Below are positions 1-15,031 of a stretch of 25,165 nt of DNA, in pieces. Source of the stretch: a virus; IMG/VR virus record IMGVR_UViG_3300036466_000086, positions 1 to 25,165 of that record, one strand, 5' to 3'. The number at the start of each line of letters is the position of its first letter. The stretch's first letter is position 1. The notes under the pieces were generated by a model. That model saw only the letters and a program-made list of their open reading frames with translations. It ran no database searches and was not told the DNA's origin. The position numbers and the translations under genes are program-made.

Positions 1-1381
1 TCCAAGCATTTTTTAATGTCCATATTGTCTTTCCAAATTTTCCAGAATTAGGATTTAATCTTGGAAACTTTTTCTTAGATAAGCTATCTTCATAATTTTT
101 AATTGTTTTTGAAACAGCATTATTTATCTTATCTATTGTTCTAGATACTCCTTCAACTCCTTGAAAGAATTTCTTTCTTTTAGCCTTTAATGCATTATTG
201 TTTGCTTCAGCAAGTTGTAGAGACAGTTTAGCAAGAAGTTCAGAAGATGTAATCTCTCCACTCTCAAATCTTTTTCTTCTCATAACAAAATCAAATAATC
301 TTCCAAGTAATTCAAGAACTACTTCAAAAAATTTCTTACCTCTTAAATCAGATTTCTCATAAACATTTAATCCGTTAAGCTTATTCATTACTTTTTCATT
401 TGTTAATCCAAGAGCCACGAATTCTGGTAATCCATTTTTAGACTTAATATAATCAAGAGTTGCTTGTGCAATCTTTTTCTCTTCTATTTCATCATATATA
501 GAAAATTCAGGCATCAAGTCTTCAACAGTAAGGTGTCTAATAGCTTGCTCATGAAGTTTTTGTAATCTATTTACAATAGGAGAAACCTCAGATGCTTTTT
601 GAACTCTAGCATACTCTGTAGCAGCATGAATAGTCTCATGGACAAAAGCTTCAGCAGAACTCATCTGATTTCCAGCATATTGACCAGCAGTTCCAACATT
701 AACATATAGACCTTTAGATAATCCTTTAAACTTAATAAATCCACCATTTTTCTCAGCTTCTTTATTTAAATAAACATGCATAGCTGGAATAAAATCAGAA
801 GCAGAATCAGTAAAAGTAGATAATACATTTTTAAGATGAGACTTATGATTATCGCTAATATTAACATCATCAAGCTCAACAAGTTCATCAAACAATTCAA
901 TAGATTTCTTTGGATCATTTAATATTCCAACTTGTTGTTTTTCGAAATCAGAAGAAATCTCTTCAGATAAAGAGTCCTGACTTGAACCAAGATCATCTAA
1001 TATTTTTTCATCTAATTCATTTAATGCATCAATGAAGATTCCATTTTTTGTATATCCATTAGTAGTAATAAAAACAGCACCAGTAGAACCATCTTTTTTT
1101 CTACTTACAGTTTCTATCTCCCCATTAGCATTATATTTTATACTGTCAATAACTATTGGGTATGATTTCTTTTTGTCTCCAGTATTATCGACAACTCTAA
1201 TCCTATCTCCAGGCTTATAATAGTTTTCATTAAGATGGATAGTCTTTTCGTTAGCAGAATATAGATTAGTTATATATTTTTCAGCCAAAGCTTTCTTAGC
1301 TTCAAGTTCTTTTCCAGAATACATAGACTCAAGAATATCAAATTCCTGGTCTATCATTTCTTCTATTAGTTTACATGCCAT
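1..1381 (-). CDS. Zincin-motif protein following the virion RNA polymerase (3' end missing)
   Basis: The reading frame is open from an ATG at 1381 to the window edge (460 codons), so the C-terminus is missing. An AAGGAT ribosome binding site lies inside the last codons of the polymerase gene, and the frame differs from the polymerase frame by one base, so this is a separate gene. Residues 248-252 read HETIH, a HExxH zinc-metallopeptidase signature in a helix-like context (AEAFVHETIHAAT). About 68 residues later P319-E320-F321-V322-A323 resembles the downstream Glu motif (xEFVA) seen in zincin domains of large phage and conjugative 'polyvalent' proteins, so E320 is the likely third zinc ligand. 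The rest is charged and helical, with a Lys/Arg-rich stretch near residues 360-420. By position it may correspond to the C-terminal domain of N4 gp50. It could act on the host after ejection or on virion proteins during maturation; the substrate is unknown. Confidence 0.75.
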   Translation of the reverse strand, partial: MACKLIEEMIDQEFDILESMYSGKELEAKKALAEKYITNLYSANEKTIHLNENYYKPGDRIRVVDNTGDKKKSYPIVIDSIKYNANGEIETVSRKKDGSTGAVFITTNGYTKNGIFIDALNELDEKILDDLGSSQDSLSEEISSDFEKQQVGILNDPKKSIELFDELVELDDVNISDNHKSHLKNVLSTFTDSASDFIPAMHVYLNKEAEKNGGFIKFKGLSKGLYVNVGTAGQYAGNQMSSAEAFVHETIHAATEYARVQKASEVSPIVNRLQKLHEQAIRHLTVEDLMPEFSIYDEIEEKKIAQATLDYIKSKNGLPEFVALGLTNEKVMNKLNGLNVYEKSDLRGKKFFEVVLELLGRLFDFVMRRKRFESGEITSSELLAKLSLQLAEANNNALKAKRKKFFQGVEGVSRTIDKINNAVSKTIKNYEDSLSKKKFPRLNPNSGKFGKTIWTLKNAW

Positions 1382-1385
1382 TTTA

Positions 1386-4300
1386 TTATAATCCTTCACA
1401 TTCATTTATATTTTTGTTCATTGTATCATTAATTCGCTTAGTATCATCTTCAGAAAGTACATACTCTGTACCACTTGAGTTAGTAGCGGAAAGAGAAGAC
1501 ACATCGTTAACATCATTAGCATTATTGATACCTCTAGCGGACTCACTCTTAGGAGAAACAACTCCATACCCAAGTTTAGAAACATTATAGTCTTCGATAG
1601 TTTCATTCTCTAAGAATCTATCTTTTTCTTTTTCTTTATATTGTTTGTTTATAAATTCAGAGCCAGGTAATGCAGTCATGTGCATAACCTTAATATCATT
1701 ATTAAACAATTCTTCTCTAGCTACTTTTGATACAGAATCTAAATCAGATAACTTTTTACCAATATCGTCAAAAGAATAAGATTTCTTATTTTTACCAAAA
1801 CCAGTAACTATGCTTTCTATTTCAGATCTTTGTTTTTCTGTCATTGTTTTAGCTACTCTTCTCATTGATACAAGTAACTCATTTGTTAAGCTATATTCTT
1901 TACTAATATTGAAAACTTGTGTATTGTAATCAACAACATTATCTAAAGCTGAATTAAGACTAGACATCTTAGCATCATGAATACCAAGAATTCCACCTTT
2001 TCCTAATAGATTAGTCATCAAACTTCCATCTATATAGTGAATAGGTATAACAGCACCAGAGTTTATAGCCTCTTCAAACTGTCTAATCATACTTTGAACC
2101 TTAGGAGAACTTCCGTTTGATAGAGCAGTTTGAGCCGCACCATACTTATAATCATATTTTGTATCTATACCAGTATTAACAATTGCAACACCATCTCTTG
2201 TACCATCTCCTAGTGGAGACTTAATAAGTGGAAAAATATCTCTTAAAGATTTAATAATCTCAAGTTCTTGTTCTGCAGTTATAGTGCCAAAACCACCAGC
2301 TAACTGTATTGCTTCATCATATTTAATTTTCCAAGCCCTAAACATCATTTTAAAACTATTGTTTATAGTTTCATTAGCTTCAATCATATCTGCAAATTCA
2401 GTAGATAAAATACTTTCTACTTGATTTCCGTAACCATCTTCAATTATGTTTCTAAGATATTGACCAAGAGTAATCTGCTCACCGTTTCCAATATTAATAG
2501 ATATGTCTTCGATAGACTTATCTCTAAGCATTTGCTTAAAGTCTCTAAGATTAATTGATGTCTTAGACAAAATATTTTCAATTAATTCATTACTCTCAGC
2601 ACTTCCATCTAAAAGTTTAGTTGGTATAGCTTCAATCATTTTATATCCAAGGTGTCTTTTAATAGATTTCATACCAGCAGAATAACCAAAAGTCATAAAT
2701 GGATCTTTAAACAATGCTCTACCATCTTTAGAAACAACATACTCTTCTCTGCTTGCACTTGAATTTTCTGAAGAAATAGTATCAGACTCAACTTCAACTT
2801 TTTCAAGTATATCTGGAAGGAACTTATTTTTTCTAAGAGTAGACCATAATCCAAGAGGATCGATTGAATCAGGGACATCATCTGGCTCTATCATTCCACC
2901 AGCAAGAGTTCTATATCCATCTACAACTCTTCCAGAATCTATTTCATCATTCATGCTAGATATTCTTTCAAAATCATTTTCAGATATTCCATCTAGACCA
3001 CCAATAAATATACCTCCTTTGGCTAACCATTCTTTAGTTTTTTTAACATCTGATAAAGGAAGCTGCATTAACTTTAAAATAAATCCACTAGTAACAGCAT
3101 CAAACTCAACTGATAAGTTAGTTTTGAAAGATTTAGATTCATTATTAATTGCATTTTGATAAGCAGTTACAGCTTGTATACCAACTATTGAATGACTCAA
3201 GTGCTCAGCTTCTAATTCTATGCCATTAAGTTTTAATTTTCCATTATTAAATAATTTTTTCAAATCAGAAATATTTGAATTCAATACAACATCGGCAAAC
3301 TCATATATTTTTTTAGTTGATTTTTTATCAACAGCAAAACCAAATGCTTGAGCGATAGCAGTTTTAAATATATTCATATCTTTTTCACTATCAATTTTAA
3401 TATTAGAAGCAAATGCTTTTGGAGTAACTAAAAATCTATGTAGCTTGTCAGCCTGAGGATTTACAGTTACTGAATCCATCATGAATCTTCCGTTTCTAGA
3501 GAAAAACCAATCGAAGAAAAATTTATTTTCTTGTCCAGAGTCAATATTAGATCCCAAGTTTATTAGATCATCAAGGCTAGTTGTAAGCTCTCTATTTCTT
3601 GCAATTGCAGATTCTCTATCGTTAAATGATAGGTCGTTAAGATAATCTTCATTTGTATATCCAAGCAATTCTAAAACTTTATCTTTTCCAAGAGAAAGCA
3701 AATCGTTTAATGCGTCAGTATTAAGTTCATATTCTTCTTTTGATAATACATTTAATGTGTCAACAGATGCACTTGGAACTTCGGTAACATCATTTTTTCT
3801 AATTGTAAATGTCTTGTCTTTTCTAGAAGAAGACGAAGCAAAAATATAACCTTTTCTATTTCCTTCAAAGCCTATGTCTTCCTTAACAGTGTTATATAAT
3901 GCTGATATCTTATTAATAGAAGATTTATCAGAAGGTAATTTTTTATCAGATTTAAGATTTTTAGATAACTGAATCATTGTTGTATTCTGACCATTAAGCT
4001 CAAGGTTAATATCATTTGGATCATTATATGCAAAAGCAGATTCGTACACATCTTTTCCACCATATTTCTTATAATCAGAAGAAGAAACAATAGTATCTTT
4101 TAAAGGTTCAATATATCCTTTAGACTCCATGTAATAAAGTGCCATTTGCCCAAGATCCATCTTAATTTTTACACTAGTTTCTATATCAATATCTCTTCTT
4201 GTTTTCAATGAAAGATTAGAAAGAATATTTTGACCAAGCTCAGAAGCTATAACTTTTTTAAACTTACCTTTGTTTCTCCAAAAAGCTATAATATCTGGAG

Positions 4301-7300
4301 ATAAACTTTGCTCATCGACACCAAGCATGTTAGCAATCTCTTCGTTTGTATTAAAGATTAATTTACTAGACATAAAAGAAATATATTCATCAGCAGCTAA
4401 AGCTATTGCTGTCGCAACATTTTTATTGATAGATATTTCACCATCAATCTTACTAAAAACTAATCCTCTTCCTGGTCCATTTTGACCTTTAAGCTTTTCA
4501 AGACCTTCGTTGTTAGCATATGCTAATGTGTTTCCAAGTACAGTTGTTGCATCATTTGAATAATTCATAACAGCTACAGATATTGGATCTTCTCCAAGAG
4601 CCAGAGAAGAAAGTCTATTTTTTTTACTTCTAGATGGCTCAACTATATTTAGTGGATTAATATGTTGACCTTTAATTTTACCAATACCTGCATACACAGA
4701 AGTACCATTCTTAGCTATTACCTTACCATTCTCTGTTATAGTTTTTTGACCAATTATAGACTCAATATGTGCGGTACCCTCAAGATCATTTTTTATATCT
4801 TTAATCTGCTCTTTAAATGGAGCAATTTTATTTTCATAAATTGCTTCAATAGAATTATTAAGTTCTTTTATTCTATTAGTAATCTTAGTCTTTCTTTCAA
4901 GAAGTCTAAACTTATCTATATGGAATCCATCTAATAGCTTAAAGATTCTTTCGATAATCATCCTAGCTAATTTAATAGGAGAGTCCATAGCTATTCTAGC
5001 TTTTTCTTTAGTAGTAGATTTTCTAAGTGTATCGTTAGCTTTTTTAATCTTTTGGTTAAGAACAGATATTTGGCTAAAAATATTATTTTGTTCAGCAGAA
5101 AGAAACTTCTTTTCATCTTTCATCTTATTTATATCATCAATAAAAGAATCAATAGTTCTTTGAAAACTTTCAAGATTATGATTTAAAATATCAACTCTAT
5201 TACTAGTAGAAAGAACTTCTTGCTTATCCGTAGATTGAATATCTTTCTTTATAGATACTAACTCTTTACTTAGATTATAAGAATGCTCTTCGTAAGGAAA
5301 TGATTCAGAAAGTGGATATCTATCATCAGTTGCAGAAACATCTTCAACGTCGATGCTAGACTCGTATGGAACAACTTGTTCTGGAGTAGATTCTTCATAC
5401 GATGGCATAGGATATACATCAAATATATTATCTGACGAAGGAGGAGTGATCTCAAACGTAGGAGTTTTTATCTGACTAGCAAGATCAGAAGAAGATTCTT
5501 TTGTATTGTTTTCTTCTTTTCTTTCTTTTTTATTATCTACTTCTTTCTCTTTTTTGATTTCTTTTTTGGTTTCTTTATTCTCTTTAGCTATTGATGCTTT
5601 CGTATCTTTAGCTTCTTTTATAGAATCAGAATACTTTTTTATATCTTTATTTATTGATACAATTTCTTTCTTTAATGCATTAAGCTTATTATCATCTCCT
5701 AAATTAACAACAGAATTGTATAATTTTTTTAAACCAGTTTCTTTTCCAGATTTAAATCTATCAAATGCTGAATCAATAACAGATTGTTCTTCTTTTGTAA
5801 ATAAAGAAGAATCTAATGATGAAGAAGATTTAGACGAATATTCTTTTGTATCATTTTTTTTAGAAGAATTAGTAGAAGTAGTTTTTCTTAAGCCTTCTAG
5901 TTCTTCTCTTTTTTGTCTATATTCAGAAACTATATCTCTATCTCTAGCATTTTCAATATCTTCTATTTTAACACCATTAAATTTTTTAGCAAGCTTATTA
6001 TGTTTAGTAAGAAATCCAGCAAGTCTTTTAATTCTATCTACTTTATCTGATTTTTTAACATCTTCATCAACTGTAGTGTCGTCAATTTTAGAAAGCTTAA
6101 CATCGTACAATTTAGAAAGATTAGATATTGCATCAACAGATCTTCCTATGTAGTCAAGAGTCTGAAGAACACCAGTCCTAGAATCTGAATCCAATAAATT
6201 TTTTGCTATATCTCCAGGATTTATTTGAAAATCACTAGAAAATTCACTATAAGTTACAGGAACCTGTGTATTTTTTCTGTCCACAATTGATTGTAGTGCA
6301 GAAGAATAATTCTCGCTAGCACCAGACTCAACTAATTCTCTGGCTCTAGATTTAACATCTCGTTCAACTTCTTGAGCAGCTTCAGAAAGCTTATTAAATT
6401 TAGATTCTTGACTAGCATGAAAATTGCTTATTTTTGAAACGTTACTAGTGATTGCTTTAGAATCTTGTCTTTCAATTGCATTTCTAAGATTATTAAAATA
6501 TGATTCATATCCTTTAAATTCATCAGATACAACCTCTTTTTCAACAGTATTGATATCCTTTCTAGCTCTAACAAAAGTTTCTTGCTCGTCTTTTACGCTT
6601 TTAATAGTTTCAGAATCTAATCCTAATGCTCTACCAAGACTTTCAATATTCTTCTTAATTGATTCATTAGAAAAGTCTCCAGAGTCTTTCATCTCAGATA
6701 ATAATTGTCTAAAGTTATTTTCTCTAGTATAATAATCAAGATTCTCTTGGTCAGAGCCAAGTGAGTTAATAGATTTTTCATCACCATCATAAATAGTTTT
6801 TTTTGTCATCTTTCTAACTTGATCAAGTAAATCTTTTCTAGTATTTAATATTCTTTCTTTTAATCTCTCGTCAAGAACAGCAGATTCATCAATAGAATTA
6901 AGTGAATCATTTGCATCAAATAAACTTTGTTGAGTTTTGTTTTGCTCGTAAGAACTTATAGAATTAATAGCATTATTTATTTTTTCTTCAACCTGAGTAT
7001 TAAAATCTAAATCAGTTGCAGTTTTTGCGTCTTCAGCAATGTTAACATCACTAGCGACAGACTCATCAACTTTACCAGATCCAATCTGACTATTAAAAGT
7101 AGTAGCAGCTTTTGCACCTTCGGCTAATCCTTTTCCTCCAATAGAAAGTGCATCGGCACCAGCTCTAAATTGTGTACCGCCAGCAAAACCAGCAAGAGTT
7201 GATTGGATAACTTCATCAATATTTTCTTCACTAGAGATAATTTTAGAGAATGAACCTTCATTTTTTTGAGTACCAAGTTGAGTTCCTAAGATTTGTCCCC

Positions 7301-8912
7301 AAGTTTGAGTATATTCTTGTGCAGCTTCACCTAGACCAGCAGCAGTTAGTGCACCAGCTTGCTCAGCAATTCCAAGAAGAATCTTTTTCTTTCCTATAGC
7401 ATCAGCAGAACCGAATGCATTTTTAAGTGCAACTTTTCCACCTTCAATACCAGTTATTTTATCAAAGGCAATTCTGTCAAGTCCAAATAAAGCAAAATTT
7501 AAAGCACCAACAGATAGGGTCTCAGCCATAGTTGGTTCAACTCCTCCATTATTTGCTTTTCTTTCTTCAAGATCATTATTAGTTTGTTCACCAACAACAG
7601 ATAATAAACCAGCATTTTCTGCAACCTTTTGAATACCTCTTTGAACGGAAGTGTTCGCTTTAGCAATTTTAGAAGAAATAGATGCAACTTCATCCGCTTT
7701 TCCAGCAGCTTTTGCAGCAGTTAGTTCAGCTCCAAGCTTACCAAGTATAGAAAATTTACCGAAACCAATAGCCATTTCAAGCATAGTAGCAAGAGACTCA
7801 GCAGCTATTTCTGGCTTAGATAATACTTTTCCTATGGCACCAAAATAGTCTCCTTTTTTCCATTTACCACCAGCCTCATTTAATGTCTTGCTTGCATCTC
7901 TTCTATCATACCCAACTAATTTATCAACATTTTCTTGTTGCTTAGCTTCGTCAAGCAAAGTATTATTTCCTGGAGTAAGAACATCAAGTATGAAGTCTCC
8001 TGTGCTAGCAAGTGCTCTGACACCACCAGCTGCGGCAGCTCTTAGTATTCCAGATTCTCCAGAAGCAGAAGCTTTATCAGCAGCCTTCATTAGCATTTCA
8101 CTATTATATTTATTTTGAGCAAGTCTATTAGAATCTTGGTTAAACCCAAATGCATCTGTATTGTAAACCTCTGTATATCCAGAACCCAACTGAGCAATAT
8201 CTTTTATCTTCTTGCCTTGCTCGTTGTAACCAGATCCATATGTTCTATTTTCTATGTTTGCTCTATTGCCATGCCACTTGTTTTCCCAGTCTTCTGCGCC
8301 AGTAAAACCTTTCTCGTCAAGAATATCATATCCTTGTTCAATGAATTGTCTTCTGTATCTATCAGCAGCACTATTCTTAGCAACACCAGTTTTGTATGTA
8401 TATAGTGGTTTTCCTTGGTAATCATATCCATCAAGAAGTCTAAGGTGATAAACTCTATGCTCAGCATTTGGATCATCCTGTGCAGAATTATATTGATCAA
8501 TAAGCTCTTGTCTATTTTTAGAACTTTGTTCAATACCAACTCCTGGCTCCTCAAAAGTTTTATTATCTAAATTTAATTTTCTGCCATAAAGATTAGCTTG
8601 TAAATCTTTTCCTCCCCATAAATCATTAACAACATTGTATGCTCTCTTTGCATTAATCATTAATGAAGAGTCATCCTCTGCACCAGATTTTTTAGATAAT
8701 CTTTCTGCTTTTCTTTGTGCTATTTCATCTTGAGAAAGTCTTGTATTCTGTCCAGAAATATTTGTTCCAGTAAAAAAACCAGAGTTATCACTTGGTGAGA
8801 TATCTGGATTACCCAAATCAGATGCTACACTAACATTGTCAAAAATAGATGGTTGTGAATATTGGTTATTGTATTCAGAAGTATTTGCATATTCGTCGTA
8901 TATTTCAGCCAT
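1386..8912 (-). CDS. Giant virion-encapsulated single-subunit RNA polymerase (N4 gp50-like)
   Basis: This 2508-residue protein ends in a T7-superfamily RNA polymerase module. Visible motifs are: T/DxxGR as S1805-R-N-G-R1809; motif A with D1938 (FDAVTSG); motif B with R2065, K2069 and Y2077 (RxxxK then Y eight residues on, in FKDPFMTFGYS); motif C with D2313 (GIHDA). The spacings (R1809 to D1938 129, K2069 to Y2077 8, K2069 to D2313 244) are close to those of N4 mini-vRNAP (R424, D559, K670, Y678, D951). The core is roughly residues 1385-2508. The N-terminal half holds a possible GIY-YIG-like domain (about 151-255), an Ala/Gly-rich hydrophobic region (285-600) and long Lys/Glu/Ser-rich coiled coils (650-1380). 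In N4 this enzyme is packaged, ejected with the DNA and transcribes early genes from hairpin promoters. The start has an AAGGA site. Only one cysteine (C2505) is present. Unlike N4 (3500 residues), no long C-terminal domain follows the core. Confidence 0.9.
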   Translation of the reverse strand: MAEIYDEYANTSEYNNQYSQPSIFDNVSVASDLGNPDISPSDNSGFFTGTNISGQNTRLSQDEIAQRKAERLSKKSGAEDDSSLMINAKRAYNVVNDLWGGKDLQANLYGRKLNLDNKTFEEPGVGIEQSSKNRQELIDQYNSAQDDPNAEHRVYHLRLLDGYDYQGKPLYTYKTGVAKNSAADRYRRQFIEQGYDILDEKGFTGAEDWENKWHGNRANIENRTYGSGYNEQGKKIKDIAQLGSGYTEVYNTDAFGFNQDSNRLAQNKYNSEMLMKAADKASASGESGILRAAAAGGVRALASTGDFILDVLTPGNNTLLDEAKQQENVDKLVGYDRRDASKTLNEAGGKWKKGDYFGAIGKVLSKPEIAAESLATMLEMAIGFGKFSILGKLGAELTAAKAAGKADEVASISSKIAKANTSVQRGIQKVAENAGLLSVVGEQTNNDLEERKANNGGVEPTMAETLSVGALNFALFGLDRIAFDKITGIEGGKVALKNAFGSADAIGKKKILLGIAEQAGALTAAGLGEAAQEYTQTWGQILGTQLGTQKNEGSFSKIISSEENIDEVIQSTLAGFAGGTQFRAGADALSIGGKGLAEGAKAATTFNSQIGSGKVDESVASDVNIAEDAKTATDLDFNTQVEEKINNAINSISSYEQNKTQQSLFDANDSLNSIDESAVLDERLKERILNTRKDLLDQVRKMTKKTIYDGDEKSINSLGSDQENLDYYTRENNFRQLLSEMKDSGDFSNESIKKNIESLGRALGLDSETIKSVKDEQETFVRARKDINTVEKEVVSDEFKGYESYFNNLRNAIERQDSKAITSNVSKISNFHASQESKFNKLSEAAQEVERDVKSRARELVESGASENYSSALQSIVDRKNTQVPVTYSEFSSDFQINPGDIAKNLLDSDSRTGVLQTLDYIGRSVDAISNLSKLYDVKLSKIDDTTVDEDVKKSDKVDRIKRLAGFLTKHNKLAKKFNGVKIEDIENARDRDIVSEYRQKREELEGLRKTTSTNSSKKNDTKEYSSKSSSSLDSSLFTKEEQSVIDSAFDRFKSGKETGLKKLYNSVVNLGDDNKLNALKKEIVSINKDIKKYSDSIKEAKDTKASIAKENKETKKEIKKEKEVDNKKERKEENNTKESSSDLASQIKTPTFEITPPSSDNIFDVYPMPSYEESTPEQVVPYESSIDVEDVSATDDRYPLSESFPYEEHSYNLSKELVSIKKDIQSTDKQEVLSTSNRVDILNHNLESFQRTIDSFIDDINKMKDEKKFLSAEQNNIFSQISVLNQKIKKANDTLRKSTTKEKARIAMDSPIKLARMIIERIFKLLDGFHIDKFRLLERKTKITNRIKELNNSIEAIYENKIAPFKEQIKDIKNDLEGTAHIESIIGQKTITENGKVIAKNGTSVYAGIGKIKGQHINPLNIVEPSRSKKNRLSSLALGEDPISVAVMNYSNDATTVLGNTLAYANNEGLEKLKGQNGPGRGLVFSKIDGEISINKNVATAIALAADEYISFMSSKLIFNTNEEIANMLGVDEQSLSPDIIAFWRNKGKFKKVIASELGQNILSNLSLKTRRDIDIETSVKIKMDLGQMALYYMESKGYIEPLKDTIVSSSDYKKYGGKDVYESAFAYNDPNDINLELNGQNTTMIQLSKNLKSDKKLPSDKSSINKISALYNTVKEDIGFEGNRKGYIFASSSSRKDKTFTIRKNDVTEVPSASVDTLNVLSKEEYELNTDALNDLLSLGKDKVLELLGYTNEDYLNDLSFNDRESAIARNRELTTSLDDLINLGSNIDSGQENKFFFDWFFSRNGRFMMDSVTVNPQADKLHRFLVTPKAFASNIKIDSEKDMNIFKTAIAQAFGFAVDKKSTKKIYEFADVVLNSNISDLKKLFNNGKLKLNGIELEAEHLSHSIVGIQAVTAYQNAINNESKSFKTNLSVEFDAVTSGFILKLMQLPLSDVKKTKEWLAKGGIFIGGLDGISENDFERISSMNDEIDSGRVVDGYRTLAGGMIEPDDVPDSIDPLGLWSTLRKNKFLPDILEKVEVESDTISSENSSASREEYVVSKDGRALFKDPFMTFGYSAGMKSIKRHLGYKMIEAIPTKLLDGSAESNELIENILSKTSINLRDFKQMLRDKSIEDISINIGNGEQITLGQYLRNIIEDGYGNQVESILSTEFADMIEANETINNSFKMMFRAWKIKYDEAIQLAGGFGTITAEQELEIIKSLRDIFPLIKSPLGDGTRDGVAIVNTGIDTKYDYKYGAAQTALSNGSSPKVQSMIRQFEEAINSGAVIPIHYIDGSLMTNLLGKGGILGIHDAKMSSLNSALDNVVDYNTQVFNISKEYSLTNELLVSMRRVAKTMTEKQRSEIESIVTGFGKNKKSYSFDDIGKKLSDLDSVSKVAREELFNNDIKVMHMTALPGSEFINKQYKEKEKDRFLENETIEDYNVSKLGYGVVSPKSESARGINNANDVNDVSSLSATNSSGTEYVLSEDDTKRINDTMNKNINECEGL
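8148..8462 (-). other. GIY-YIG / T5orf172-like domain inside the polymerase N-terminus
   Basis: This covers residues about 151-255 of the virion polymerase. The order of elements is like a GIY-YIG fold: a hydrophobic strand (RVYHLRLL), a second strand with Y-x-K-T-G (LYTYKTGVAK), a helix with clustered arginines (R185, R187, R188) and a later acidic helix ending in E210 and H214 (AEDWENKWHG). The following GSGYTEVYNTDAFG segment is a pattern I associate with this domain in other large phage proteins. This is a recognition from memory of the pattern, not a computed match, and the canonical tyrosines are not all present. If real, it would be ejected into the host with the polymerase. Confidence 0.45.
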
Positions 8913-8986: not shown

Positions 8987-10666
8987 TTAGTTAGATAAAT
9001 AAGTTCTAGCATTATAATATAAATCTTTAGCAGCATTTATATCTCTATTAAATGAATCTCCAGGCTGACCAGTACCACCTATAGAAGTAGCAAGTGCTCT
9101 TTTCTCTGCAGGAGTTATATTTTTACCCTGCTCCTTTAGAAACTCTCCAATAGGTATAGCCATATAATCTCTAATAGATGAAAGACCAGAAGCACCCTCT
9201 ATTGCTCCAATGATTTTCTTAGAATTTTCTGGATTAGATCTAAGATATTCCCCCAGCGGAACGGCAATATTATCTCTAATGTCTCTAACATTTCTCTGAT
9301 TTGCAAATATATATTTATTGATAGCAGATGTAACTGGTTTTTCTATATTAAACTCAGGAGAAACAGTTGAGTTGGCTAAACTATTTAATAGCTTAGAATT
9401 TCCACTAATTAAGCCATCTTTCCATGTTTCAGATTCTATCTTCTTGTTTAATTCATTTACCTTCGTAAATCTTTGTTTTGCACTAAGGCTCTCATCATTA
9501 AGGATATCTTGCTTCTGAGATGATAATTTGTCTATCTCTTTAAAGCTAGATGATCCTTGGTTAGATGAATCAGCAACGATGCTGACAGCATTGTCAGCAT
9601 TAGAATTCGAAGCACTAGCATTTTCTGCTTCTTTCTTTGGAAGATTAGCTGTATATCTAGCGAGTGCTGACTCAAATCTATTTTCAGCAGTCTGAGGAGC
9701 TATTCCTCTTATATCATTAAGAATTGCTTGAGCAGATGTAGCACCTTGGCTACCAACTTGTATCCTATTTAATCCTTCAGTTGGCTGAGGAGTAAACTTA
9801 GGAGATCCTCCTCCAAAACCAAGAGTACTAGAACTTGTAGAGTATCCACTTCTGACTAACCCACCTATATCAGAAGGAGAATATCCTTGTCTTGCAAGAG
9901 TAGCTCCGTATTTTCTCATTTCATCTGCAACATTTTGTCCAGCAGTAGTACTTGGAAGTTCTAAGTCTTCTATAACTTTATTAACTGATTTACCAGTTTC
10001 TTCAATATACTTAGCAGGATTTTGTATAGAATTCTTACCGTACGATTGAGAGCCAGAGGTTGGTGATTTTAATCTTGAGTCAACTAATTGTTTTTGCAAT
10101 TCTTCTTCCTGAGTAGGAATGAAAGACGATCCAAACGAATTTAATAATTGTTGTTTTTTAAGCTGACTAAGCCCAGGAACAGAATTTAATTGCTTAGAGT
10201 AATCAGATAATGATGCAGCTCTAGACTCAGCAGTATTAAGATTGTTAAAACCTTGATTAAAAGCTTCTTCAAACTGCTTGTCAGTTCCTCCAGCTTTTGT
10301 AAATTTATTATAATTTTCAAGTAAAGATTTTCCTTGATCTATTCCTATAACATCTTGTTCTGTTATTTTTTTAGGAGATATTTTATTTGCAGCTCGTTCT
10401 GCTTCAAGATCAGCCAATTGAAGACCTTTAACCTTTTTATTGAGATTAAATTCTTCTTGTTGTCTAGCATTTTGTATATCAAATCTTCTAGCATTTTCTG
10501 CATCCTGAGAAGCAAGCCTAGCATCAAGAAGTTCTTGTCTTTGCTTATCGTCTTCTCTCTTTTGAAGATTTCCAATAATGTCAGACAGCCCAGACGAAGG
10601 AGATTGACCAAATCTTGGGATTGAAATTCTTCCGCCTGAAAAACTACCTATATTTTTTATAGCCAT
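8987..10666 (-). CDS. Probable internal/ejected virion protein, 559 residues
   Basis: This is a Gln/Asn/Ser/Ala-rich, helical, cysteine-free protein between a small ejection-type protein and the giant polymerase. That is the position taken by ejected proteins in N4-like phages. Residues about 30-90 are strongly helical and charged (coiled-coil-like); residues 200-320 are Gly/Ser/Thr-rich and probably flexible. Near the C-terminus an element of about 35 residues is repeated: IRDNIAVPLGEYL from I463 and IRDYMAIPIGEFL from I498. No enzyme motif and no membrane segment is visible. The start is supported by AAGGAAACAAT before ATG. I do not recognise a family. The assignment as an internal virion protein rests on position and composition. 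Confidence 0.7.
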   Translation of the reverse strand: MAIKNIGSFSGGRISIPRFGQSPSSGLSDIIGNLQKREDDKQRQELLDARLASQDAENARRFDIQNARQQEEFNLNKKVKGLQLADLEAERAANKISPKKITEQDVIGIDQGKSLLENYNKFTKAGGTDKQFEEAFNQGFNNLNTAESRAASLSDYSKQLNSVPGLSQLKKQQLLNSFGSSFIPTQEEELQKQLVDSRLKSPTSGSQSYGKNSIQNPAKYIEETGKSVNKVIEDLELPSTTAGQNVADEMRKYGATLARQGYSPSDIGGLVRSGYSTSSSTLGFGGGSPKFTPQPTEGLNRIQVGSQGATSAQAILNDIRGIAPQTAENRFESALARYTANLPKKEAENASASNSNADNAVSIVADSSNQGSSSFKEIDKLSSQKQDILNDESLSAKQRFTKVNELNKKIESETWKDGLISGNSKLLNSLANSTVSPEFNIEKPVTSAINKYIFANQRNVRDIRDNIAVPLGEYLRSNPENSKKIIGAIEGASGLSSIRDYMAIPIGEFLKEQGKNITPAEKRALATSIGGTGQPGDSFNRDINAAKDLYYNARTYLSN

Positions 10667-10684
10667 ATTGTTTCCTTTTATTTA

Positions 10685-11092
10685 TTATATTTTAGAAGCA
10701 ACGTTAGCTGATCCAAAATGTTTATTAACTGCTTCTGTTCTGGCAACAGCATTATTATATTTTGTCTTCTCTGCTTCATAGTTTCTATTAGCATTTTCAA
10801 TACTTGCGTTAAGTGCTTTCTTTTGAAGATTATAGTTTTGGAAACCTTGGAACGCTTCAAGTGCACCAAGACCAACTTGTGCAGCACCCAACCCATCTCC
10901 AAACGAAAATCCAGAATCAGAAACTGGAAGATTGCCCAACCCATCTTGTCCGACACCAATGCTTCCAGTAGAATTACTTCCGCTTTTAAAAACTGGGCTA
11001 GAGATAACATCTCCACCATTACCACTTACAGGTATTGGTTTAAAATATGAATTTGTAGCATTACTTCTAGAGTAAGTTGTATAGTCAGCCAT
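10685..11092 (-). CDS. Small internal virion protein, N4 gp52-like in position and layout
   Basis: This is a 135-residue protein without cysteine. The first 65 residues are Gly/Ser/Asn-rich and probably disordered. Residues about 66-90 form an Ala/Gly/Leu helix (GAAQVGLGALEAFQGF), followed by a long polar helix (KKALNASIENANRNYEAEK) to about residue 120. A glycine-rich helix followed by an Asn/Gln/Lys coiled coil is the usual layout of small ejection proteins next to the giant polymerase in N4-like phages and resembles T7 gp14-type core proteins. It may line or traverse the envelope during DNA entry. An AAGGAT site precedes the ATG. Exact family membership cannot be shown here. Confidence 0.65.
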   Translation of the reverse strand: MADYTTYSRSNATNSYFKPIPVSGNGGDVISSPVFKSGSNSTGSIGVGQDGLGNLPVSDSGFSFGDGLGAAQVGLGALEAFQGFQNYNLQKKALNASIENANRNYEAEKTKYNNAVARTEAVNKHFGSANVASKI

Positions 11093-11180: not shown

Positions 11181-13487
11181 TTAACCAGTTTGAGTAACCT
11201 TTCTAGTTTCATATGCATAGTCAACATCATAAAGCTGGTCAAAATTAAAAGCAGCCTCGCCAAGCATGCTTGAAATATATGCATCTGGCATATTTAGTGT
11301 CCCAGAAAAGTAAGAAGACTGGTCATCAAACATCATTATTGTAGCAGAGGCATCATTGTAATTCATTGAATCAAGAAGCTCTTTTAATTCTGAATGTTGT
11401 TCTTGTATTGAATCAAGACGTGTCTCGCCCTCGGCAATCATTCTATCTGTTTCCATCTGCATAGCTTGGTTCATTGTTGAAAGTATTACGTTTGCTGCCT
11501 GAAGATAGCCAACACTAAATTGTTGTCCAAATAAAGTAAAGTCTCCATACATAGCTGCAATAATAGCAGCGGCAATTATAACTGCAGCTCCTAGCTTTGG
11601 ACCAAGAACTTTAATTACTATATGCACAACTAGTGCAACAGCAAGAATCTTAAATAGTGCAACCCATAAAGATGTGGTGCTACCTAAAGTCCATATTATT
11701 ATTACGAATGCTACCATTTTAAGTATAGCACCAAAGATAGACGTTTCATACCATTTAACAAAAACTTCTTCTGTTGCGTAACCAAGAAGACAAAGACCAG
11801 CTTCATATATTGCAACAAAATTTTTATAGCTAAGACTATTAAGAACACCAAGCGGAACAATTATTCTGCTATGTTCAGCGTCTCCATTTAGATCTGTATC
11901 TATGGTTTGACCAGATATTTTATATTTCTGCCTATAGTCAGCTATAATTATCTGCTTATATTCTGATTGACTACCCTGATATCTCATTACCATTCTATAT
12001 CTTGCTTCCTGACTTGTCCCATCCCCAGAAGAAACACTAACATAATATGTATCAATGGTTTTGGAATATGTTCCAACTGGAAGAATAGAGCCAGAGATTG
12101 TGCTTCTAGAAATTGTAAATGTATAAACCATGTTAAGCTGATTCATTGAAATACTTATATTTCCAGATCCTGGAGCATAATAATTAAATGATTTATATAA
12201 TGCTTCAGCTATAGCAGAACCTCCAGCATGTGGATGAATGCCAGTCATTAGGTATGCATTATCCATATCAGGATTAGCCAGGCTGTCTACAAGATCATTT
12301 GGCTTAAGATTTAATTTTTTAAGCATTCTTTTTAGCTTATAATTTTCTAAATCTTGAACTACATTATTTTCTTTTAGTGCTATTATAGCTGTCATTGGTA
12401 CAGTTTCTGAGAAATAAATATTAGTCGGTGCACCAGATAATAACTCAATATGTGTAAAATAAAATTCTGAATCATAATCGCTTCTAGTGTATTCTATATA
12501 CAGATTTTCAAAATCATTGGCTGCAGTAGATATTGAAAATGTTGTCAATGGCAAGTAAATCTCTATAATATTTGAATCACTAACACTTTCAGCAAAAACT
12601 CTATAGTTATTAACTCCTGATATATTATAAACTGTATGGTCATAGTAAGTAACCTCATATTGAGAATAATAAACAACTTCATATGGATACGAATCAGTTT
12701 CAACAGAATCTTCTATCACTTTGATAGTATAGTTACCAACATCATATAAAGAATCGCTAATTGACCATTCCTTCACAGAACTAGTATTAAATACATAGCT
12801 ATCGTATAGTAATCCAGATTCATATATTTCTATGATTGTCTCATTTATGGAAACTCCAGCAATACCAGATAATTCAAGAATTCCAGTTCCTTCATCAAAA
12901 TTAATATATGTTCCATCGTAAGAATATGAGTCCTGAAGAGACTCAACTATATCTTCCTCTGGCTCTTTTATAAAATCACAAGTTAATGTATTTCCAGATC
13001 TAGAGACACTTGGATTTATCCATGTATCGCCAGCATTAATTAATGTTTGCGTGTGATTAGTATAATCATAATTATTTTGAATATAGTTAAACATAATTTG
13101 ACTATCAGATAAATAGTCACCAATAAATCTTCTTATTCCATTTGCCTCTGGAACAATAGTCTGAAGATAAGAAAGAGTAGCTGCTTCATTTATAACTCTA
13201 GTACTTGCATTTGTACTTGGTGCGTATCCAAGACTGGTTAAGAATCTAGGTGAGCACTTTCTTCTGTAGTCCTTTTGAAAACTCTTGTATATTTTAAAGT
13301 AGCTATTCGCATCTCCTTTTGACTGACGAATAGCATTACGTCTAGCACTTTCATCAGCTTCTCCTGGAGTAAGAAGATTCTGTATAGATATATCACTAAC
13401 TGTCTCATAATGATCAACAATACCAAGTAGAAGGTTTAGTCCTCCAGTCATAACAGTCATTAGATTTTTACCAAAACTTCCACCCAT
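11181..13487 (-). CDS. Large virion protein with a C-terminal membrane-segment cluster
   Basis: This is a 768-residue protein whose ATG shares one base with the stop codon of the acyltransferase gene, so the two are translationally coupled. Residues 1-140 are helical and begin with a hydrophobic Gly-rich stretch. Residues about 190-370 are rich in Tyr/Ser/Val/Ile and look like beta-sandwich (Ig-like) domains. Residues 450-530 are again beta-rich. Residues about 584-601, 605-628 and 632-646 form three hydrophobic segments (FGAILKMVAFVIIIW and following). A charged helix (675-710) and a polar tail follow. A virion protein with membrane segments, placed just before the ejection proteins, could form part of the channel through the host inner membrane. 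No catalytic motif is visible. It is the nearest candidate acceptor for the upstream acyl cassette, by position only. Confidence 0.7.
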   Translation of the reverse strand: MGGSFGKNLMTVMTGGLNLLLGIVDHYETVSDISIQNLLTPGEADESARRNAIRQSKGDANSYFKIYKSFQKDYRRKCSPRFLTSLGYAPSTNASTRVINEAATLSYLQTIVPEANGIRRFIGDYLSDSQIMFNYIQNNYDYTNHTQTLINAGDTWINPSVSRSGNTLTCDFIKEPEEDIVESLQDSYSYDGTYINFDEGTGILELSGIAGVSINETIIEIYESGLLYDSYVFNTSSVKEWSISDSLYDVGNYTIKVIEDSVETDSYPYEVVYYSQYEVTYYDHTVYNISGVNNYRVFAESVSDSNIIEIYLPLTTFSISTAANDFENLYIEYTRSDYDSEFYFTHIELLSGAPTNIYFSETVPMTAIIALKENNVVQDLENYKLKRMLKKLNLKPNDLVDSLANPDMDNAYLMTGIHPHAGGSAIAEALYKSFNYYAPGSGNISISMNQLNMVYTFTISRSTISGSILPVGTYSKTIDTYYVSVSSGDGTSQEARYRMVMRYQGSQSEYKQIIIADYRQKYKISGQTIDTDLNGDAEHSRIIVPLGVLNSLSYKNFVAIYEAGLCLLGYATEEVFVKWYETSIFGAILKMVAFVIIIWTLGSTTSLWVALFKILAVALVVHIVIKVLGPKLGAAVIIAAAIIAAMYGDFTLFGQQFSVGYLQAANVILSTMNQAMQMETDRMIAEGETRLDSIQEQHSELKELLDSMNYNDASATIMMFDDQSSYFSGTLNMPDAYISSMLGEAAFNFDQLYDVDYAYETRKVTQTG

Positions 13488-13978
13488 TATAAGCCTTTTA
13501 TTTTATTGTAAAATTTATTTATAGATTCTTTTGTTACTTCAGATATCAATACTGAATCATCAGAAACTTTTGTTCCTAGTTTAATAAACTTTTCTATGTT
13601 TTTGTTTTTTATATATAAATCAATATTTTTAAATAAATTATTCATAATATAATTATTAAAAAGAATATTACCATCAGATACCCTGAATGGCTTAAGCACA
13701 TTAATATAAGATATCGAGCCAAATTGTTTTTCTCCAATTTGAGTTAACTCAGTACATGCAGCTCCAATGATAAGATTATTAATCATCAGAATATAACATG
13801 TTCCTCTAGATATTGATCCTCTAATCTTTATATTTACGCTATTGCTAGATCTATCAGTAGATGACAATACTTCAGATGTAGAAAAAATCTCTCCAAGTAT
13901 CATACCAGAAACAATATCAGCATGAGAAGAATCAGCTTTATATATTGAAAAATTATTTAGTGAGTCTAACTCCACCAT
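13487..13978 (-). CDS. Probable GNAT-type N-acyltransferase
   Basis: This is a 163-residue protein that starts 26 bases inside the ketosynthase gene and has the strongest ribosome binding site in the window (TTAGGAGG). Strand-like segments CYILMINNLIIGAAC (61-75) and FGSISYINVL (86-95), followed by KPFRVSDGNILFNNYI (96-111), resemble beta2-beta3, beta4 and the acyl-CoA-binding turn plus helix of GNAT enzymes, although the Q/RxxGxG/A loop is degenerate. T7 gp13, needed to assemble the T7 internal core, is also described as GNAT-like, so such a protein beside ejection genes has precedent. With an acyl carrier protein and ketosynthase upstream, the donor here could be an acyl-ACP instead of acetyl-CoA (inference). 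It could also be a structural relic without activity. Confidence 0.45.
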   Translation of the reverse strand: MVELDSLNNFSIYKADSSHADIVSGMILGEIFSTSEVLSSTDRSSNSVNIKIRGSISRGTCYILMINNLIIGAACTELTQIGEKQFGSISYINVLKPFRVSDGNILFNNYIMNNLFKNIDLYIKNKNIEKFIKLGTKVSDDSVLISEVTKESINKFYNKIKGL

Positions 13979-14792
13979 AAAAGCCTCCTAATCCGCTTGC
14001 TAAAACCAATCCAGTTTTATTGTCATATCTTTTATCTTCTATTAACATACATAATTCAATTAGACCACTGGCACCTTGAGTATGCCCATGAATTTCCTTA
14101 TAAGACACCGTATCTCTAATCCCAAATAATTCAATAGATGAAGCTTCTACTTCATTATTTCTTTCTGTTCCTGTTCCATGTGTTTTTACGTATGATACAT
14201 CATCAGAGTATAAATCATTAAGGACTTTGATATAACCATCCGCACTAACAGACATTGGACTTGAATCTGCATTCCACTTCCAAGAAGTAAGATCTATCTT
14301 GTAATTAGAATACTTATTTGATAAATGTATAATAGCAGCACCATCTGTGCAAACCATATCTATTCCAAGCTGCTTAAATAATAGCTCTTGTGTAGGTTCT
14401 CGAAGTTCATCAGAATAAACTACTACATCTGTATATCCTGAATCAAGAAGCATCTTAGCTTCATGTAAAGAATATATACTACTTGCACAAGTGTTTGAAT
14501 TACTACTTGCATAATTTACATTATTTATCATCTTTGATATCGTAAAAACATTCAATCCTATCTGGCTCTTTATTGGAGCATTTCCAGGAAGAGACAAGTT
14601 TTTAATATTTCTAACATCACTATGATGCATTGCTGGACCAGCAGCATACAAAAAAGCAACATTTTCTCCAACATCTAATCTGTCAAAAAATGGATTTAGT
14701 ATATTAATATATTGACCAGTCATAAACTTTGATCTGTCAATAGACTCAATAAGTGGATCTCCAACAACATATTCAAAATCTTTTACATACAT
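13953..14792 (-). CDS. Shortened beta-ketoacyl-ACP synthase (ketosynthase)
   Basis: This 279-residue protein has the thiolase-fold condensing-enzyme motifs in order. The nucleophile C102 lies in NTCASS followed by a helix and SGYTDVVVYS. H205 lies in KTHGTGTE with the downstream ELFG. K232 and H237 lie in YKEIHGHTQGASG. The C-terminal glycine loop is SGLGGFYGG. These match the FabB/FabF Cys-His-His triad plus the conserved Lys; K232 to H237 is five residues, as K328 to H333 in FabB. It is about 130 residues shorter than typical enzymes (about 410), mostly before the Cys and between Cys and the first His. Such enzymes condense or decarboxylate malonyl-ACP to extend acyl-ACP. It overlaps the ACP gene by 10 bases and the acyltransferase gene by 26. 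Activity is plausible because no catalytic residue is missing; the product is unknown. Confidence 0.85.
   Translation of the reverse strand: MYVKDFEYVVGDPLIESIDRSKFMTGQYINILNPFFDRLDVGENVAFLYAAGPAMHHSDVRNIKNLSLPGNAPIKSQIGLNVFTISKMINNVNYASSNSNTCASSIYSLHEAKMLLDSGYTDVVVYSDELREPTQELLFKQLGIDMVCTDGAAIIHLSNKYSNYKIDLTSWKWNADSSPMSVSADGYIKVLNDLYSDDVSYVKTHGTGTERNNEVEASSIELFGIRDTVSYKEIHGHTQGASGLIELCMLIEDKRYDNKTGLVLASGLGGFYGGVRLTK
13984..13989 (-). promoter_or_regulatory. Strong ribosome binding site of the acyltransferase gene
   Basis: AGGAGG lies six bases or less upstream of the ATG at 13978 and is embedded in the last codons of the ketosynthase gene. Most genes here have the weaker AAGGA form, so this one may be tuned for higher translation or for coupling. 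Confidence 0.7.
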
Positions 14793-15031
14793 GATACTAT
14801 TCTTTCATAAATTGTATTTGGTGTTTGGTTTGAATAATCAAACTTTTCCTTGTTCAAATCTGATGTGTCAAAACAATGATACTTATCATCAAGTTCAACA
14901 TACATCATTATTCCGCTAAAGCTATCAATACCAGATGATAATATCTTATCATCAAAAGATATCGGATTACCATGGTTTTCGATAATATAATCATTAATAA
15001 AATCTAATATTTCATCTTCTGAATAATTCAT
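14783..15031 (-). CDS. Phage acyl carrier protein
   Basis: This 82-residue acidic helical protein has the carrier-protein signature: DKILSSGIDSFSG, with S37 in G-I-D-S as the predicted 4'-phosphopantetheine attachment site, followed by a helix (IMMYVELDDKY) like the recognition helix of ACPs. Its length matches bacterial ACPs (about 75-85 residues). It would need a host phosphopantetheinyl transferase, as none is seen in the window. It is followed with overlap by a ketosynthase and then a probable acyltransferase, so it most likely carries the acyl chain for that cassette. Host ACP normally serves this role, so a private ACP suggests an unusual chain or a dedicated acceptor. AAAGGAT precedes the ATG. 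Confidence 0.8.
   Translation of the reverse strand: MNYSEDEILDFINDYIIENHGNPISFDDKILSSGIDSFSGIMMYVELDDKYHCFDTSDLNKEKFDYSNQTPNTIYERIVSCM

Follow-up and report, generated by a model that had tools for sequence, protein, structure and literature searches.

Here, we describe a virion RNA polymerase (vRNAP) of the bacteriophage N4 type that is encoded by two genes rather than one in IMG/VR virus record IMGVR_UViG_3300036466_000086, whose entire 25,165 bases were analyzed and are referred to as the window. The first gene supplies the N-terminal part and the T7-like RNA polymerase (RNAP) domain, the second supplies the C-terminal domain (CTD), and each chain carries one cysteine, at the end that faces the other. 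Judged from these sequences, the vRNAP is probably a divided enzyme in which a disulfide between the facing ends takes the place of the peptide bond, so that the chain would stay linked during packaging and ejection while its parts could separate in the host cytoplasm. With somewhat less assurance, we favor the wider view that N4-type phages have repeatedly broken the ejected polymerase at domain boundaries, each time with a disulfide, so that it would pass through the tail as a redox-cleavable train. An earlier note, made from the letters of the window alone, had pointed to the split; that observation is confirmed here, while the most striking feature of the locus, one cysteine on each facing end, had gone unnoticed.

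In profile searches, the 2508-residue polymerase matched PF21867 (E = 2.1e-6, above the curated cut-off) and phrog_2206 (E = 4.6e-85). Counted from D2313 of GIHDA, which the earlier note took as motif C, the chain continues for the 195 residues given there. The same note had described a new gene just past the stop, in another frame and with its own ribosome binding site, and this is what the junction contains: four bases (1385-1382) separate the polymerase stop from the ATG at 1381-1379, the reading frames differ, and a GAAGGA lies upstream. Open reading frame (ORF) tools place the second start at ATG 1405, overlapping the polymerase stop; the start at 1381, giving a protein that begins MACKL, appears the better choice because relatives start with M-x-C at the same place. 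Thus, where an N4-type vRNAP is a single chain, the window has two ORFs in different frames, with a stop and a start between them. The CTD protein ends at 459 residues because the contig ends there; complete relatives with this CTD module, among those listed, measure 1283-1509 amino acids.

The evidence supports the identification of the 459-residue protein as the CTD of an N4-type vRNAP, encoded as a separate gene and starting with a zincin metallopeptidase-like module. The chain matches positions 2273-2565 of the 3406 in PHROG 2206 (vRNAP; E = 1.9e-23), and tblastn finds similar sequence within vRNAPs annotated in many cultured schitoviruses (E-values down to 7e-9). The HETIH and downstream PEFVA reported in the earlier note are both present, at residues 248-252 and around E320, respectively. 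Residues G214, E244, H248, E249, H252, and E320 are invariant in an alignment of 52 relatives, the rows of which were selected for having HExxH, so that only G214, E244, and E320 count as independent evidence. An AlphaFold2 (AF2) model built with these 52 relatives reached a predicted local distance difference test score (pLDDT) of about 90 over residues 150-350, and its top match in VIA was N4 gp50 (9pnr) at residues 2374-2592 (Z 9.9). The next VIA neighbors were the zincins lethal factor (Z 7.3) and PPEP-3 (Z 5.7), values below 8 being weak, and Foldseek of the model returned no significant match; a zincin fold for the module is therefore likely rather than proven. A phmmer search of the window's chains against the PDB gave nothing useful, so the link to the N4 structure rests on profiles and folding. 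Direct searches for close relatives of the short CTD protein found none in viral contigs, and a plasmid search found none either. With similarity to gp50 C-termini recovered by profile, tblastn, and VIA, and with relatives lying fused to vRNAP genes or directly after them rather than elsewhere, the earlier proposal of a split-off gp50 C-terminal domain has held up. The free-standing domain is not the sole recognizable version, since a zincin had been described before in vRNAPs of this type (PMC5512222) and a structure of the N4 CTD is now available, with a reported autoinhibitory effect (PMC12633501).

The CTD of N4 gp50 has been divided in a preprint into C1 (2124-2375, with HExxH) and C2 (2376-3500); C2 showed no significant structural homology, and the linker preceding C1 (2102-2123) was invisible (PMC12633501). 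The comparison with the gp50 C-terminus that the earlier note had proposed was run with a profile of the window's module, and the similarity it anticipated was found at N4 2444-2653 (conditional E = 5e-17), at the start of C2, with a weak match to 2226-2324 in C1; the module is thus not N4's HExxH domain, as N4's own HExxH (2228) lies in C1. At 2444-2653, N4 has lost the HExxH and the third Glu relative to the intact zincin module of relatives. Two related modules thus seem to be present in N4, the motif being preserved in C1 but degenerate in C2, and the CTD of the window corresponds to the start of C2 rather than to C1, with HExxH intact in its copy. No C1 copy was found in the window. At least two HExxH motifs occur ahead of or within the CTD in three related contigs (L004, L006, and L035; contigs are denoted by L numbers). 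For the C1 chain that is free in L006, AF2 gave a poor model (pLDDT 46, from five sequences), and the case for C1 being a zincin therefore depends on motif and sequence.

About 20 other viruses, among related contigs and including the cultured Alteromonas phages AD45-P1 and P4, have a vRNAP divided likewise (L002, L004-L007, L022, L023, L027, L032, L033, L035, L042, L046, L059, L062, L064, L069, L078, L079, L095, and L219, with AD45-P4 (L008) and AD45-P1). The break falls most commonly between RNAP and CTD. It falls between C1 and C2 in L027 and L035, and at both the RNAP/C1 and C1/C2 boundaries in L006; double breaks, between the N-terminal domain (NTD) and RNAP and between RNAP and CTD, occur in L022, L059, L064, L069, and L078, and a break at NTD/RNAP only in L025, L060, L063, L074, L077, L164, L124, and L146. 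The AD45 records annotate no coding sequence at the vRNAP and carry one 'potential frameshift' note; the sequence there consists of two intact genes, the products of which have calculated masses of 273 and 159 kDa in AD45-P1. The split between RNAP and CTD is real and recurrent; no report of a split vRNAP or of a vRNAP disulfide was found in the open-access literature. The divided vRNAPs reveal, by evolution, which cut sites the chain tolerates (NTD/RNAP, RNAP/C1, and C1/C2). An apparent break at L007:1107 was rejected as a domain break owing to its location inside RNAP; it is an in-frame TGA within the RNAP domain, with homology continuing beyond, and may reflect a mutation, an error, or recoding. 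AD45-P1 also encodes a thioredoxin.

It has long been noted that N4-like vRNAPs are free of cysteine, a property that possibly aids tail passage (PMC2784036; PMC3715699; PMC3915230; PMC4837373), and those of N4, A5, Vibrio 1.224.A, BUCT194, and phiCB2047-B contain none. The window departs from this with one cysteine per chain, on the facing ends only. Across 29 divided genomes (61 chains; 97,981 amino acids), 67 of the 71 cysteines are found no more than 20 residues from a break end, and every one of the 67 break ends has a cysteine. The remaining four comprise three in L033 and L035, in starts that are probably over-extended, and one inside the L078 polymerase. Undivided vRNAPs contain eight cysteines, all within 3 of 55 chains (182,185 amino acids), and cysteine makes up 0.84% of the other genes of the same loci. 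In the junctions compared, the upstream cysteine stands one to four residues from the C-terminus and the downstream one at residue 3 or 4, as in LEEC-stop/MSCQI, IEETCK-stop/MGCII, and, in AD45, KHCKQ-stop/MTICT. Cysteines are restricted to facing ends, true outer ends being without them, and middle chains have one at each end (C1 of L006; RNAP of L022, L059, and L069). That an undivided vRNAP can be free of cysteine was already known from N4; the cysteine rule at the breaks of divided ones is new.

The rule was examined against controls, phylogeny, and further contigs. Among ordinary adjacent gene pairs, cysteines on both facing ends were found in 4 of 401. In a group comprising L060, L063, L074, L077, and L164, the two genes lie approximately 1.7 to 7 kb apart with several genes between, and the cysteine pair is kept; the N-terminal partners in this group were verified by their homology to the N-terminal portions of vRNAPs elsewhere in the set. 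Since these distant pairs keep the cysteines, a DNA-level cause of the codons, through overlap with the Shine-Dalgarno (SD) site of the following gene, was rejected. On a tree of the C2 region, the NTD/RNAP division requires six changes and the RNAP/CTD division two (FastTree with local support; some branches are long). L003, which is fused but nested in a divided clade (starred support), lacks the linker and both cysteines, the pair having been lost on re-fusion. L107 differs from the near-identical fused L049 by one TAT-to-TAA change in the RNAP-CTD linker region and has no pair, and the frameshifted L055 and L016 have none; these breaks, which look accidental, thus come without it. The cysteine prediction was fixed ahead of two further contig scans, which yielded 66 undivided chains (214,735 amino acids) with no cysteine and four new divided genomes (L124, L146, L164, and L219), all with the pair. 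L167, a longer locus, contains the partner of L077, and the cysteine of this partner is the fourth residue from its end. The scans also gave exceptions: L168 and L189 have cysteines in the interior, and L122 and L214 are interrupted inside RNAP, the latter apparently by frameshifts, with no pair. In L180, L183, L201, and L235, cysteines occur close to the start, in sequence that probably belongs to an over-extended start.

In the mechanism we propose, the first gene encodes the N-terminal part and RNAP, the second, from its own start four bases on, the CTD, and both chains would be packaged with the genome. The facing cysteines would form an intermolecular disulfide that ties the RNAP chain, at its C-terminus, to the CTD chain, at its N-terminus, presumably in or after virion assembly, restoring head-to-tail continuity for packaging and tail threading. 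Reduction in the cytoplasm of the new host could then free RNAP from the CTD and leave the zincin to act separately. N4 gp50 is described as a set of loosely joined globular units, likened to beads on a string; its RNAP-CTD interface is weak, and its CTD lowers transcription, a reported autoinhibitory effect (PMC12633501). According to work cited in PMC5512222, encapsidation requires the metallopeptidase-domain region; if that holds, the pieces of a divided chain must be joined in some other way. How the 380-kDa enzyme gets through a tail channel some 35 Angstrom wide, and which role the CTD has in early transcription, are regarded as open questions (PMC12633501). The cysteine pairs suggest that it matters, for packaging or ejection, whether the chain is covalently continuous. 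The zincin motif is kept in 29 of 30 divided sets and in 58 of 61 other C2 modules, shares biased upward since most C2 rows came from searches with the motif as pattern. Its retention in divided sets too suggests that the target of the predicted zincin is not only the RNAP-CTD junction, and that the motif is not kept merely to cut there.

Other explanations were weighed against a disulfide-linked, divided vRNAP. That the gene is frameshifted, missequenced, or dying, with the CTD normally fused, is scarcely credible: such cases do occur in the set (L107, L055, L094, L016, and the NTD/RNAP part of L095), and the AD45 annotation itself speaks of a frameshift, but accidental breaks lack the cysteine pair, the downstream gene of the window has its own start, an SD-like site, and the conserved M-x-C, and independent contigs together with AD45-P1 and P4 break at the same domain boundary with differing stops and frames. 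Readthrough or frameshifting that gives some fused product, the separate CTD being an additional form, would suit the tight junctions and L004, the ORFs of which share one frame with a single TAG between; it is nonetheless very improbable, as many junctions are out of frame, the stops are various, a start is present in all, and the genes of the L060 group (L060, L063, L074, L077, and L164) lie kilobases apart.

The pairing of reactive residues at facing ends might also indicate that the chains are rejoined by a peptide or other permanent bond, through trans-splicing or ligation. We give this little credence, as the upstream cysteine, last to fourth from last in the junctions compared, leaves no room for intein segments and the downstream one, within M-x-C, is not N-terminal; a split intein was rejected from the same positions (1-4 residues from the upstream C-terminus; downstream residue 3 or 4). 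A stronger contender, though still an unlikely one, is a pair of non-covalently associated proteins with cysteines that bind a metal jointly, form mixed disulfides with some other virion protein, or are lipidated, among other roles. One cysteine per end leaves the type of bond unspecified, and the weak RNAP-CTD interface of N4 (PMC12633501) makes some tether plausible while leaving its chemistry open. Yet a linkage from chain to chain accounts better than a third partner for the confinement to facing ends and for the two cysteines of middle chains, one per end, and one cysteine from each chain would make a poor metal site.

Several points weigh against the disulfide-linked chain that we prefer. 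The disulfide and the co-packaging of both chains are deduced from sequence. Because phages assemble in the cytoplasm, which is reducing, it is hard to say when the bond would form. Interior cysteines occur in the undivided L021, L083, L090, L168, and L189, and cysteine is therefore not absolutely forbidden. NTD and RNAP-CTD occupy overlapping ORFs without terminal cysteines at L082:3462-13231, which may be a true exception or a frameshift. The partner of L025 was chosen in part by its terminal cysteine, and the 20-residue window used for break ends is wider than most cases require. Nearly all divided cases are metagenomic assemblies, AD45 being the only cultured group found.

Table 1. Features of the divided vRNAP locus and of the two genes beside it (positions in the window).
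Feature	Position	Strand	Basis
N4-type virion RNA polymerase chain, N-terminal part and T7-like RNAP domain	1386..8912	(-)	2508 aa; PF21867, phrog_2206
Only cysteine of the polymerase chain, C2505, TGT codon; fourth residue from the C-terminus (NINECEGL-stop)	1398..1400	(-)	sequence, cysteine count
GAAGGA, Shine-Dalgarno-like, 10 nt upstream of ATG 1381, within the final polymerase codons	1392..1397	(-)	read from sequence
Polymerase stop TAA	1386..1388	(-)	sequence
Separate CTD gene, 459 aa to contig end (3'-truncated)	1..1381	(-)	phrog_2206 match; split in relatives too
Cys3, TGT codon, sole cysteine among the 459 CTD residues present (MACKL)	1373..1375	(-)	sequence
Small SH3/Tudor-like barrel ahead of zincin, residues ~50-112, modest confidence	1046..1234	(-)	AF2 model; VIA Z ~5
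Zincin module (likely), residues ~149-404, homologous to N4 gp50 2374-2592	170..937	(-)	AF2; VIA
HETIH, residues 248-252, predicted zinc ligands and general base	626..640	(-)	sequence, alignment
E320 of PEFVA, predicted third zinc ligand	422..424	(-)	invariant in 52 relatives
559-aa protein, N4 gp51 (ejection protein) position, no cysteine	8987..10666	(-)	gene order, cysteine count
135-aa protein, N4 gp52 (ejection protein) position, no cysteine	10685..11092	(-)	phrog_2646 E 3.7e-6, gene order, cysteine count

Elsewhere in the window, PHROG matches identify a major head protein, a protein labeled as tape measure, a portal, and an endolysin, and the gene order resembles that of N4. The 559-residue protein in the gp51 position gave no significant family match in profile searches; the absence of cysteine from the genes in the gp51 and gp52 positions (8987-11092 (-)) matches N4. 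A ketoacyl-synthase-like protein (PF02801, E = 1.3e-8) is encoded among the virion genes at 13487-15031 (-), and the same stretch holds an acyl carrier protein-like small gene and a possible acetyltransferase, both recognized by eye only. The closest relatives found for the window polymerase (39% identity), L034 and L035, are in contigs filed under Gracilibacteria and Falkowbacteria genomes, which are probably phage DNA that was co-binned or co-sorted.

Compared with known systems, the window shares the RNAP family and the giant, cysteine-poor chain of N4 gp50 and other Schitoviridae vRNAPs (PDB 9pnr, 11fw, and others), and its CTD is homologous to that of N4 gp50 in sequence and predicted fold, within a similar neighborhood of virion genes. 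N4 gp50 is one cysteine-free chain of 3500 amino acids, whereas the window has two genes with one cysteine per facing end; N4 carries HExxH in C1 and a degenerate version of it in C2, whereas in the window the motif sits in the C2 module and C1 is not detectable. For N4-like vRNAPs, a zincin was described earlier, the N4 domain having been tied to the lethal-factor endopeptidase fold (PMC5512222), and the lethal-factor-fold neighbors of that domain recur in VIA for the module of the window. The zincin-like metallopeptidase (MPTase) of polyvalent proteins has HExxH and a downstream Glu, as in the window; the RNAP module was reported to be (almost) always fused to the MPTase (PMC5512222), whereas here the MPTase has a gene to itself. 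Alteromonas phages vB_AmaP_AD45-P1 to P4 likewise encode RNAP and CTD as two genes with facing-end cysteines (P1 and P4 checked), but their zincin motif is degenerate, with EEVVH in place of HExxH, and that of the window is intact.
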